A stretch of 64,000 nt of DNA, from assembly GCA_945900775.1 (NCBI GenBank), contig CAMDJP010000001.1, positions 17,822-81,821 on the forward strand, written 5' to 3'. The position numbers and the translations under genes were made by a program. This DNA comes from Akkermansia muciniphila. GTDB lineage: Bacteria; Verrucomicrobiota; Verrucomicrobiia; Limisphaerales; SIAT01. This document shows, one piece after another, positions 4,013 through 41,763 of the stretch; the first letter of the stretch is position 1, and the number at the start of each line of letters is the position of its first letter. Under the pieces are notes generated by a model. That model was not told where the DNA came from and searched no databases. It was given only the letters and a program-made list of their open reading frames with translations.

Positions 4013-4409
4013 GGTTTTGGAAGGGCGGAGAATCGCTCTCGGGGAAACCCGAGGGAGGAAAGTCCGAACTCCGCAGGGCGCGATGCCGCGTAACTCCGGT
4101 TCAACCGGAGATACACGCGGGCGGTTATGGCGTGAGCCGTGCCGACGGACAGTGCCACAGAGAACATACCGCCAACCGGCGCAAGCCGGCGGTAAGGGTG
4201 AAAAGGTGGGGTAAGAGCCCACCGCGCCAAGCGCAAGCGAGGCGGCACGGAAAACCCCATCGGGTGCAAGGCCAAATAGGAAACCTTGAGGCTGCCCGCC
4301 TCGTGTCCGGCGAAAGCAGGACGGGTTTCGGGTATTGGCCGCTAAGACAAATGATTCTCTCCCCGCGCAAGTGGGTAGACAGAAATCGGCTTACAGCCCT
4401 TCCAAAACC
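4013..4409 (+). ncRNA. rnpB: RNase P RNA, bacterial type A
   Basis: P1 helix ggttttggaagggc (4013-4026) pairs with gcccttccaaaacc (4396-4409); conserved GAGGAAAGTCCGAACTCC, GACAGTGCCACAGAGAA, AAGGGTGAAAAGGTGGGGTAAGAGCCCACC, GGTGCAAGGCCAAATAG and ACAGAAATCGGCTTACAG. Confidence 0.96.
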
Positions 4410-33069: not shown

Positions 33070-34944
33070 TTATTTCTCGCGATAGATCATGTCGGCCACA
33101 GTACGGCCGGCGGGGATGAACGGCAGCACGTGCTCGGTGTACGGAGTGATGACGTCCAGGACGTACGGCTCGTCTGTTGCGAGCATCCGCTGGAGCGCAG
33201 CGCGGAGGTCTTTCCGGTACATCACGCGCTCGCACTTCACATTAAAGGCCTTGGCCATCTGCACGTAATCGGGATAAATTTGATTCATGTTCGCCGGGTC
33301 ACCGAGGTAGGTGTGCCCGCGGTTGCCGGCATAGAAACGGTCTTCCCACTGCACGACCATTCCGAGGTGCTGGTTGTTCAGGATGATGGCCTTCGCGGCA
33401 ATCTTCTCGATATGCGCCGTGGCTAACTCCTGCACGTTCATCAGGAAGGAACCATCGCCGTCGATGTCTATGACCTGCTTGTCGGGCCGTGCGACCTTGA
33501 TACCGATGGCGGAAGGGTAGCCGAAGCCCATCGCCCCAAGGCCAGCGCTGGTGATGAACTGGCGCGGAAACTTGTACTGGTACCACTGGCCGGCCCACAT
33601 CTGATGCTGGCCCACGCCGGTGGTGATAATGGCCTCGCCTTGCGTCAACTCGTAGAGCATCTCAATCACTATCTGCGGCAGAATGACCTCGTTTTCCTTG
33701 CCCTGCAGATGCTCGCGCATGTGATGCGACTTCGTCATCCCCTCGGTGACATGGTAGCTGAAGGGCGCCTTCGCCTTCCATTTCACAACCTGCGCATGCC
33801 AAGGGGAAAACTTCTTCGCAATGGGCCGCTTGACAATCATCTTGTTCAGGCGATCAAGGGCGTACTTGATGTCGCTGATGATGGGTAGGTGGACGAACTT
33901 ATTCTTGTTGTGCTCGCAGGGGTCAATGTCCACGTGAACGATGGTGCCGGTCTCGCAGAACTTCTCGACCTTGCCCGTCACTCGGTCGTCGAATCGAACA
34001 CCGAAGGCGAGCAGAAGATCCGCCCCGTCGGCGATTTTTTCCGCCGGCGCCGTGGGGTTCGTGCGCAGCTTGAATTCACCGCTCACGGCCCAGTTCGCGT
34101 AAGCCGCACCGTGCATTCCGAGCCAGCGCAGTGAGAGTGGATGCGTCTCCGGAAAGGCACCAATGCCCATCAACGTTGTCGTGACGGGAATCTGCGCCGC
34201 CTCGGCAAACTTGAACAGTTCAGCCGTCGCCTCGCCGGTGATGATGCCGCCGCCGACGTAGAGCACCGGCCGCTCGGCTTTCTCGATGAGGCCGATGATT
34301 TCGTTGAGGGCCAGATCGTCCGCCTTGGGCGGAGCAGGGTAGCCGCGCAAACTGATTTCACTGGGCCACACGGGCTGCGCGCGTTGCTGCTGGAGGTTCT
34401 TGGGAAAATCGACCACTACAGGCCCGGGGCGCCCCGACTGCGCGACGTGAAATGCTTCTTTGATGATGCGCGGGATGTCGTTGATATCGGTGATGAGATA
34501 ACTGTGCTTCACAATGGGCAGTGTCATCCCAAAGAAGTCCGTTTCCTGAAATGCGCCTTTGCCGATCATCGCTTGCGGCACCTGGCCGGTGATTGCAATG
34601 AGCGGCACCGAATCCATGTACGCGTCTGCGATGGCAGTGACGAGGTTGGTTGCGCCGGGACCACTGGTGGCCATGCAGACGCCGGCCTTGCCACAAGCCC
34701 GTGCGTAACCTTCGGCCGCGAACGAGCCACCCTGCTCGTGCCGAGGCAGGATGGTACGGATTTGCTTCGAGCGCGTGAGAGCTTGGTGTAATTCCATGCT
34801 CGCACCGCCGGGGTAGGCGAAAATGACCTCCACGCCTTCGCGTTCTAGCGCGGCGACAAGGATTTCGCTGCCGAGCATCGGATGTCCGAGCTCAGATTTA
34901 CTGGGCGCGGCTGTCTTCTTCGCTTTCGTCGTTGTCTTGCTCAT
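33070..34944 (-). CDS. ilvB: acetolactate synthase large subunit
   Basis: [92 protein letters not shown]; start [10 protein letters not shown] at 34944. Confidence 0.96.
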
Positions 34945-34984
34945 TGTGTTTTGCGGTTTTGACTGGAGCCGCAGGCGAAACAAA

Positions 34985-35012
34985 AACCCACGGCCGTTAC
35001 CAGCCGTGGGTT
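34985..35012 (-). terminator. intrinsic terminator (attenuator 3:4 hairpin) in ilvB leader
   Basis: Minus strand aacccacggc-tggtaacg-gccgtgggtttttgttt; 10-bp perfect arms plus U-tract, between leader peptide and ilvB start. Confidence 0.9.
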
Positions 35013-35028
35013 CCTGTCGAAATCTTCA

Positions 35029-35106
35029 CTAATTACGACAGGTACCCGCGGCGTCGCCAGTTACGACGACTGCCACTACAACGACCTGTCGAACATTCTC
35101 CAACAT
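35029..35106 (-). CDS. ilvB leader peptide MLENVRQVVVVAVVVTGDAAGTCRN
   Basis: ATG at 35106 to TAG at 35029; eight Val in 25 aa, seven of them in QVVVVAVVVT (GTC GTT GTA GTG GCA GTC GTC GTA); lies directly before overlapping 1:2, 2:3, 3:4 stems. Confidence 0.85.
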   Translation of the reverse strand: MLENVRQVVVVAVVVTGDAAGTCRN

Positions 35107-35252
35107 CCTGTAGAGCGTAGCCACCAACCTGAGGTCGGGTCAAGCCTGCTTTCAGCCTCCGACGAGCTTGCGACTAAGTTCCCAGAGGGCAACTCGCCAA
35201 TCAGTTATAGGCGATCCGAGCGGAGCGTAACTCGCCGCGGATCAGTTCTACA

Positions 35253-36320
35253 TCAGTGGCTATCTATGTCGCGAAACGGCGAGGGTTCCTGTTGGCTGAT
35301 GCAGTGGAAGGAGCCGAGGCCCCAGATCAGCTCGGTGGAGTCGACGCCGATGATCTTGCGATCCGGGAATTCGCGCTGGAGTATCCCGAGTGCCGTGGCG
35401 TCGTTCGCGTGGCGGAAGGTCGGTACGACGACGATTTGGTTCGCGATGTAGAAGTTTGCATAGCTGGCCGGGAGGCGCTGTCCGTCGTACTCGACGAGTC
35501 CGGGCATCGGCAACTCCACCACACGCAGCGGCCGCCCATCTTGATCCTTCATCGAGCGAAGTCGGTGGAGGTTCTCTTGCAGCAACGCGTGGTTCGCGTC
35601 CGCTGGATCCTCTTCTACCACCGTCACGACAGTGGTCGGGCTCACGAATCGGGTGAGGTCGTCCACGTGACCGTCGGTGTCGTCACCCACGATACCGTCG
35701 CCGAGCCAGAGAATGTTTGTCACGCCGAGGTAGTCTTTGAGGAACTGTTCGATCTGCGGCTTGCCGAGGTGCGGGTTGCGGTTCGGGTTGAGCAGGCAGC
35801 TCTCCGTGGTGAGGAGCGTGCCACAGCCGTTCACCTCGAGCGCACCCCCTTCCATCACGATGCCGGGTGAGAAGAGCGGCAGATCGCGTAGTTTGGCCAC
35901 GTGCTGGGGGACGGCGTCGTCGAGGTCGAACGGAGGATACTTGTTGCCCCAGGCGTTGTAACCCCAGTCTACGACGGCGCGCTCCTTCCTTCCACTGTGC
36001 TCGCGGACGAGGAAAATCGGACCGTGGTCGCGGCACCATGGCTCATAGGCGGGGAAGTGATGAAAATGGACGCGCTCGAGCGGCGTCTTCTCCTTCTGCA
36101 GAAGGTTTCGGACCCACTGTTCCATCTCCGCATGCCAGACGTTGATGTGGACCTCCTCGACCTTGACGAGCTCCTTGATCAATGCGGCGTAGACGGGCGG
36201 GACGCTGTCGTACTTGTCCGGAAAACTAATCCCCTCCGGGCGCGGCCAGGTGAGCCAGGTGCCGACGTGAGGCTCCCATTCTGCGGGCATATGGTAACCA
36301 AGCTGGGTAGGGGTCTTCAT
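35253..36320 (-). CDS. aguA: agmatine deiminase
   Basis: MPAEWEPHVGTWLTWP, EPWCRDHGPIF, GIVMEGGALEVNGCGTLLTTESCLLNPNRNP, DDTDGHVDDLTRF; start MKTPTQLGY at 36320. Confidence 0.95.
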   Translation of the reverse strand: MKTPTQLGYHMPAEWEPHVGTWLTWPRPEGISFPDKYDSVPPVYAALIKELVKVEEVHINVWHAEMEQWVRNLLQKEKTPLERVHFHHFPAYEPWCRDHGPIFLVREHSGRKERAVVDWGYNAWGNKYPPFDLDDAVPQHVAKLRDLPLFSPGIVMEGGALEVNGCGTLLTTESCLLNPNRNPHLGKPQIEQFLKDYLGVTNILWLGDGIVGDDTDGHVDDLTRFVSPTTVVTVVEEDPADANHALLQENLHRLRSMKDQDGRPLRVVELPMPGLVEYDGQRLPASYANFYIANQIVVVPTFRHANDATALGILQREFPDRKIIGVDSTELIWGLGSFHCISQQEPSPFRDIDSH

Positions 36321-36353
36321 GAAATTCTTTGTGTCTCGCAAATCACCGGAGTG

Positions 36354-38117
36354 ATGCGCGAGAAACGTAAGATCAAGAATGTCGCGCGGAAAGTGAATTG
36401 TGAGCGGCACATTCCTAAGCCCGCTTGCCTTTCAAATCTGTTCGGGCAAGCTGCTCGTGTTTTGAAATCGGCCACCTATCGTCAACGCCTCGCCTATGCG
36501 GCGGCCGCTGGAGTGCTGCTCACACTTGCATTCCCTCGATTCAATTTGTCGGCTTTCGCGTGGGTGGTGCCCGGTTTGTGGCTCCTCACCTCGGCGGGCG
36601 TCTCTCCCCGGGAGGCGTTCAAAATTGGCTACGCCGGGGGGTTGGCGCACTACCTCAGCTCGCTCCATTGGCTTCTCCACCTCCCGTTCCCGCAGACCGC
36701 CTGGCTCGGTTGGCTGGCGTTGAGTGGGTACTGCGCCCTCTACCCAGCGACATGGATTTGGCTCTGCTGGAAACTGGCGCCAACATCACGAGTCACTTTC
36801 GATGCGAAAATCCCAGCCGCGCATTACCCCTGCTTGGATTCGCTTTTCGCCGCCGGATGGTGTCAGCGGCAACTCTGGCTCCTCCTCTGTGCCGCTGCGT
36901 GGGCGGCCTTGGAATTAACGCGCGGGCAGTTCCTCACCGGGTTCCCTTGGAACTTCCTCGGCGTATCGCATCATCAGATCTTGCCTCTGGTGCAGATTGC
37001 CTCCGTGACGGGGGTGCTCGGCCTGTCCTTTCTTTTGGTTTGGTTCTCAGTCGGGCTGCTCTGCGCGGTGACGAGCATCATTCGCCGACCAACGGAGCGC
37101 TGGGCGTGGCTAGGGGAAACATTTTGTCCCATCACCGCGCTGATGCTCGTGGTCGGTTGGGGATTTCTTGAAGTCTCACGGAAAGAATCGGATGTACGTT
37201 ATTTACGGGTGGCACTGGTGCAGCCGAGTATTCCGCAGAAGATAAAATTCAATCCGGAAGAGAATGCAAAGGCATTCCAACGAGTCTTGAATTTGTCTGA
37301 GGTGGCACTGGCGACGAAACCTGATCTGCTCATCTGGCCCGAGGCGGTGGCGCCGGGCTTCCTGCGTTACGACGAAAAGCTGCTCGCGACCGTGACAAAT
37401 CTGGCGCGGACCAACAATGTCTGGATTCTCCTCGGTGCGGACGATGCCGAGCGGCGGAAGGACGATTCGCAGGAGGCGAATTATTTCAATAGCGCATTCC
37501 TCGTCTCACCCGAGGGAAAACTGGCGGGTAAATATGACAAGCGGCACCTCGTAATTTTTGGCGAGTATGTGCCGCTGGCAAAATGGCTTCCTTTCTTGAA
37601 ATGGCTCACACCCATCGGCGAAGGCTTTACTCCAGGAACGGTGCCGGCACGTTTTAACCTATTGCATGGGGCGCATCGAACAAGGTTGACGACGTTGATT
37701 TGCTTTGAAGACTTGCTGCCTCATCTCGCCCGCGAAAGCGCAGCGAACGCGGATATTCTGGTGAATCTGACGAACGACGGGTGGTTCGGCGAAAGCGCGC
37801 AACAGTGGCAGCACGCGGCCAACGCGGCTTTCCGTGCCGTGGAAACGGGTCGACCGCTGGTGCGCTGCACGAACAACGGCCTGACTTGCTGGGTGGACAC
37901 GCGCGGGCGGTTTCACGAAACTCACTTCGGCGATTCGCCAGATATTTATGGTGCGGGTTTTAAGACGGTGCTCATTCCCATTGGGTCGCCGATTGAGACG
38001 TTCTACCAGCGCTACGGCGATTGGTTTGGCTGGAGCTGCGCGGCAGTGACATTGCTGGCGTGGCTGTTGGCTGAGCGCTCCAAAAAAGGCTGGGCAAGCG
38101 CAGCCGGCAGACCCTAA
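36354..38117 (+). CDS. lnt: apolipoprotein N-acyltransferase (start uncertain)
   Basis: Multi-TM N-terminus, then VALVQPSIPQKIKF, LLIWPEAVAPG, KRHLVIFGEYVPL, LICFEDLLPHLAR, NLTNDGWFG. Confidence 0.93.
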   Translation: MREKRKIKNVARKVNCERHIPKPACLSNLFGQAARVLKSATYRQRLAYAAAAGVLLTLAFPRFNLSAFAWVVPGLWLLTSAGVSPREAFKIGYAGGLAHYLSSLHWLLHLPFPQTAWLGWLALSGYCALYPATWIWLCWKLAPTSRVTFDAKIPAAHYPCLDSLFAAGWCQRQLWLLLCAAAWAALELTRGQFLTGFPWNFLGVSHHQILPLVQIASVTGVLGLSFLLVWFSVGLLCAVTSIIRRPTERWAWLGETFCPITALMLVVGWGFLEVSRKESDVRYLRVALVQPSIPQKIKFNPEENAKAFQRVLNLSEVALATKPDLLIWPEAVAPGFLRYDEKLLATVTNLARTNNVWILLGADDAERRKDDSQEANYFNSAFLVSPEGKLAGKYDKRHLVIFGEYVPLAKWLPFLKWLTPIGEGFTPGTVPARFNLLHGAHRTRLTTLICFEDLLPHLARESAANADILVNLTNDGWFGESAQQWQHAANAAFRAVETGRPLVRCTNNGLTCWVDTRGRFHETHFGDSPDIYGAGFKTVLIPIGSPIETFYQRYGDWFGWSCAAVTLLAWLLAERSKKGWASAAGRP

Positions 38118-41686: not shown

Positions 41687-41763
41687 CGGGACGTAGCGTA
41701 GCTTGGTAGCGCGCTTCCTTGGGGTGGAAGAGGTCGTGAGTTCAAATCTCACCGTCCCGACCA
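41687..41763 (+). tRNA. tRNA-Pro (anticodon GGG), CCA encoded
   Basis: Acceptor cgggacg/cgtcccg, anticodon stem-loop cttcc-ttGGGgt-ggaag, T-loop ttcaaatc, terminal acca. Confidence 0.95.

Follow-up and report, generated by a model that had tools for sequence, protein, structure and literature searches.

The 64,000 nt stretch of DNA that was analysed (the window) carries on its minus strand a gene for the large subunit of biosynthetic acetolactate synthase, ilvB (33070..34944; TIGR00118, 667 bits against a cut-off of 538), whose product makes the precursor of Val and which is the putative regulated gene. The description of this gene in the initial annotation as a lone ilvB is borne out by another contig, on which ilvN and ilvC adjoin each other without ilvB. 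Upstream and in the same direction, an agmatine deiminase gene (35253-36410, minus strand) ends approximately 146 nt before the ATG of a short leader ORF of 25 codons followed by TAG (35029..35106, minus strand), encoding the peptide MLENVRQVVVVAVVVTGDAAGTCRN, and an intrinsic terminator is located just before the start of ilvB at 34944. Elsewhere in the window, an RNase P RNA of class A (4017-4409, plus strand) and a tRNA-Pro(GGG) (41687-41763, plus strand) are ordinary.

Within the leader, seven of eight consecutive codons specify Val (GTC GTT GTA GTG GCA GTC GTC GTA; 35062..35085, minus strand), a run that is unique in the six frames of the 64 kb window and was found in none of 40 first-order Markov simulations of it. 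The transcript can be divided into segments, all on the minus strand. Segment 1 (CGACAGGT, 35084..35091), a candidate protector strand, is perfectly complementary to ACCTGTCG at the end of segment 2. Segment 2 (35036..35052), which lies inside the leader ORF, would form the 5' strand of an antiterminator with segment 3 (35003..35019) as its 3' strand, and the second half of segment 3 also serves as the 5' arm of the terminator (34982..35012); antiterminator 2:3 and terminator 3:4 thus have one strand in common and are mutually exclusive. The terminator consists of a 10-bp stem (AACCCACGGC/GCCGTGGGTT, arms at 35012-35003 and 34994-34985) and a U-tract that is short in this copy, T5 only (34986-34982). 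The letters therefore agree with the initial annotation as regards the seven Val codons within eight, the perfect complement of segment 1, the pairing of segments 2 and 3 at 15 of 17 positions, and the 10-bp stem with UUUUU whose 5' arm lies inside segment 3. Folding of 35115-34960 gave -73.7 kcal/mol (z = -6.45), and none of 200 shuffled sequences was as low. A generic scan with strict rules scored neither a promoter nor a terminator here.

Named members of the order to which the window belongs go by Limisphaerales, Pedosphaera or Verrucomicrobia subdivision 3. Among 58 related genomes, ilvB was present in 55 and its upstream DNA could be read for 54, and in 53 of these 54 loci (Limisphaerales/Pedosphaera group, over 50 families) a Val-rich ORF and a closely following terminator precede ilvB. 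One relative has a Val run of three only (L007), another a divergent version that lacks the TTGAC box described below (L043), and the region upstream of a distant ilvB (L055, 58% identity) is without the attenuator. The initial annotation had named orthologous leaders lacking the Val run as grounds for rejection; instead, conservation throughout the order extends to the run, the 2:3 pairing, the terminator and its distance from the stop codon. The gap between leader stop and terminator arm is 16 nt (10-90% range among relatives, 16-20), and the terminator is nearly invariant (ACCCACGGCTGG-AACGGTCGTGGGTTTTTT), with its stem paired in 98.8% of cells of 52 aligned sequences.

When a covariance model built from 52 sequences was run on a sample covering the class, it matched 50 of the 52 genomes from the same order: 48 with E-values below 1e-13 and two weakly. 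In other orders of the class, where approximately 57 ilvB upstream regions were readable, one clear case was found, with leader MNQVLVQLVTISVVVVSDSAAVELCA in G192, and a paralogous ilvB outside the order, in G171, was picked up through the model; this second ilvB paralogue of the latter genome (L116, G171:C19; 44% identical) has a Val-run leader of its own, MKLTLVVLLVKVVVVVVTSNEFARA, whose terminator differs. Matches elsewhere in the phylum were few and weak. Most weak matches outside the order are plain terminators. Opposite-strand matches on the same terminator were set aside as palindrome artefacts, and a further match in the window's own genome (C5, 20 bits) was dropped since it is located between two genes and no Val leader accompanies it. 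Two public MAG records titled Akkermansia muciniphila (L056 and L068) bear the ilvB attenuator of this order, so that these labels look wrong.

Leaders of the relatives are about 25 codons long, with Val making up 27% of codons; in most of the 53, Val is concentrated between codons -14 and -10 (counted from the stop), while segment 2 starts at approximately codon -7, which is GCC in 41 of 53. The Val codons are also unusually chosen: GTA accounts for 30% of Val codons in leaders, 9% in the genes of the window and 2% in ilvB, and the share of GTG drops from 42-56% outside leaders to 15% within them. Biased control codons are a known trait of attenuators. Theory ties this bias to selective tRNA charging and not solely to rarity (PMC1183508), and limits set by RNA structure on the Val codons of the leader may contribute to the choice.

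The attenuator unit extends upstream to a promoter at 35143-35114 (minus strand), composed of a -35 element, TTGACC (35138..35143), with TTGAC at the same place in 52 of 53 relatives, and a -10 element, TACGCT (35114..35119), which is separated from it by 18 nt and matches the consensus weakly, and which was assigned from the sequence together with the relatives. The leaders of 52 of 53 relatives are preceded by a TTGAC box and a TAnnnT-like box, which stand 15-18 nt apart (in most cases 17 or 18). Transcription usually starts approximately 7 nt downstream of the -10 element. The leader ATG of the window (35106) is 7 nt past it, and the first in-frame ATG or GTG of the relatives follows at a median of 8 nt (10-90% range, 6-10); since the start codon thus lies about where the transcript is expected to begin, the leader peptide is probably leaderless. 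Judging from promoter consensus and spacing, translation would then begin at the 5' end of the RNA.

Covariation of the stems among relatives had been suggested as a check, and compensatory changes were found in 2:3, where both sides have changed in 8 of 17 pairs and 20 double-changed cells were observed against 7.3 in shuffles, a comparison that leaves shared descent in. In contrast, covariation of the 1:2 hairpin did not rise above shuffles, though 75.9% of it is paired in the alignment of relatives, and segment 1 was assigned by its complementarity. When leaders were recoded synonymously with the peptide kept, the natural 2:3 pairing was stronger than the mean of the recodings in all 53 relatives and fell below the 5% level in 37 of 53 (median -21.5 kcal/mol versus -12.8 for random synonymous codons; median z -2.2). 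Pairing was also stronger with a genome's own segment 3 than with that of another genome (-21.4 versus -19.6 kcal/mol; 0 of 20,000 permutations, descent not being fully removed), and the divergent copies L043, L023, L049 and L020 keep the 2:3 pairing with other letters. Selection on this pairing at synonymous sites, with compensatory changes, is thus supported by the sequences.

Plain equilibrium folding, proposed in the initial annotation as a test of the switch, proved unsuitable: the terminator formed nearly always, as it did for an E. coli trp control, and even with a stalled ribosome the full-length fold still gave the terminator in 51 of 53 relatives. Since the terminator is favoured at equilibrium in the E. 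coli trp system too, this outcome speaks against the test and not against the model, but the switch must be kinetic and take place during transcription. Full-length folding was therefore replaced by folding of intermediates, i.e., transcripts ended before segment 4 with a ribosome mask placed on the Val codons or at the stop codon. Going by general ribosome footprints, the edge of a ribosome that has codon -11 in its A site falls just before segment 2, whereas a ribosome at the stop codon covers segment 2 and leaves free a terminator arm located 16 nt past the stop. With the ribosome on the Val codons, the terminator arm of the intermediates was engaged in 2:3 with a mean probability of 0.79, exceeding 0.5 in 53 of 53, compared to a mean of 0.08 and 1 of 53 with the ribosome at the stop, where the mask covers segment 2 by design. 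In this model, it is the conserved geometry that puts the stop-state ribosome over segment 2.

Taken together, the locus shows a run of codons for the end product, a terminator between leader and gene, a mutually exclusive antiterminator and a suitably placed stop codon, and the order-wide retention of the Val run, 2:3, the terminator and their spacing supports the layout of a ribosome-mediated attenuator that the initial annotation had proposed. On these grounds, which are those of sequence comparison, we propose, with a probability of about 0.9, that ilvB is governed by a transcription attenuator of the trp/ivbL kind that responds to the charging of tRNA-Val. The transcript would begin at the leader ATG or beside it, and a ribosome would load with no Shine-Dalgarno site to guide it. 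With ample valyl-tRNA, the ribosome would reach TAG and cover segment 2, leaving segment 3 free, so that the terminator forms and transcription ends before ilvB. With too little valyl-tRNA, the ribosome would stall at the Val codons, directly before segment 2, and 2:3 would form ahead of the transcription of segment 4; with the terminator arm thus sequestered, ilvB would be transcribed. If the leader is not translated, segment 1 may reduce expression, which is a weakly supported step.

The same attenuator could respond to branched-chain amino acids in general, including Leu and Ile, since the enzyme is common to the Val, Leu and Ile pathways and Leu accounts for 9% of leader codons in the family, with CTG clustering at codons -17 to -15. 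However, Val accounts for 27%, the enrichment of rare codons concerns Val (GTA) while leader Leu is mostly CTG and not the rare CTA or TTA, and the leader of the window has a single Leu (codon 2) and no Ile, making this broader response rather unlikely. Far less probable is a mechanism other than the sensing of tRNA charging, be it action mainly in trans by the leader peptide or by the short terminated RNA, or ribosome arrest by the peptide itself. The S. meliloti peTrpL peptide, which is leaderless too, acts in trans (PMC7298713), and the leader C-terminus GDAxGxCR is conserved across relatives; yet the pairing that segment 2 must preserve accounts for this conservation, frame and codons are kept and not a fixed peptide, and a Val run before a gene of the Val pathway points to tRNA sensing. 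That the hairpin merely terminates the agmatine deiminase gene, which does run in the same direction and end shortly upstream, with the leader ORF being fortuitous, is already largely refuted by the promoter before the leader in 52 of 53 relatives, the Val-rich leaders of almost all of them and a 2:3 pairing that exceeds coding need, and is scarcely credible.

Besides the ilvB leaders, Leu-rich leaders (e.g., MNRNLNLLLTSALLTGAAVGF) with a terminator AACCCACTGCC..GGCGGTGGGTTTTTT were observed in the same order before genes that by eye resemble 2-isopropylmalate synthase, leuA (L110, G255:C78; L118, G043:C17; L109, G112:C11), and these are probable Leu attenuators. In sister orders, leaders alternating Val and Ser (e.g., MIKVSVAVVAVSDPAVVDYCA and KISVVSKAVVGLGAVALLRS) occur with the same terminator before a class I SAM methyltransferase gene (Methyltransf_11/31) at L105 (G192:C9), L106 (G140:C19), L107 (G142:C49), L113 (G230:C59), L114 (G207:C96) and L123 (G125:C11). 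By eye, the locus in G192 is preceded by metY-like and metA-like genes, and a homoserine dehydrogenase-like gene follows that in G125. We tentatively raise the possibility, while leaning against it, that an old leaderless module in Verrucomicrobiia has been reused with different control codons for different genes: Val for ilvB order-wide, Leu for leuA, and, in sister orders, the Val/Ser-alternating leader for the methyltransferase. With the ilvB leaders, translation-coupled attenuation, probably with a leaderless peptide, would reach throughout an order in a phylum from which the literature searched gave no such report; the covariance model is ready for use, GTA offers a natural test of how rare codons are chosen in control regions, and the leuA and methyltransferase leaders point to further attenuators in these bacteria.

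In the open-licence literature, no earlier report of an ilvB attenuator in Verrucomicrobiota was found. The His_leader family of Rfam (RF00514) aligned weakly through its two-hairpin layout, at 25.1 bits versus a gathering score of 49, and the locus has no His codons and no his operon; no other leader or riboswitch family of Rfam 15 (T-box, ppGpp and others) matched at its gathering score, and relaxed thresholds likewise gave nothing. Mutating the codons presumed to control ilvB was without effect in Streptomyces coelicolor, a caution that an attenuator anatomy of this kind calls for experiment. The Corynebacterium ilvB-II uORF and ilvBNC attenuator share a uORF rich in branched-chain amino acids and a terminator before ilvB (PMC10272879; PMC11857589), and the system described here would work like them (PMC10272879; PMC1262725), without evident sequence kinship by eye; however, they belong to another phylum and differ in structure, and the run here is nearly pure Val. 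According to a title cited in PMC10272879, a leader peptide of C. glutamicum is formed without a ribosome binding site. A leader ORF that begins at the RNA 5' end has a precedent in trpL of S. meliloti (PMC7298713), although that leader concerns Trp and trpE(G) in a different phylum. The ivbL-ilvBN attenuator of E. coli (MTTSMLNAKLLPTAPSAAVVVVRVVVVVGNAP) likewise has a Val-rich leader, a terminator and the same regulated gene, but shows no evident sequence kinship by eye; the leader here is shorter and probably leaderless, ilvB is not in an operon with ilvN, and the system is, as far as searched, restricted to Verrucomicrobiota. Hence, while the principle of attenuation is itself known from E. 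coli, the ilvB leader of this order is a new, lineage-wide case.
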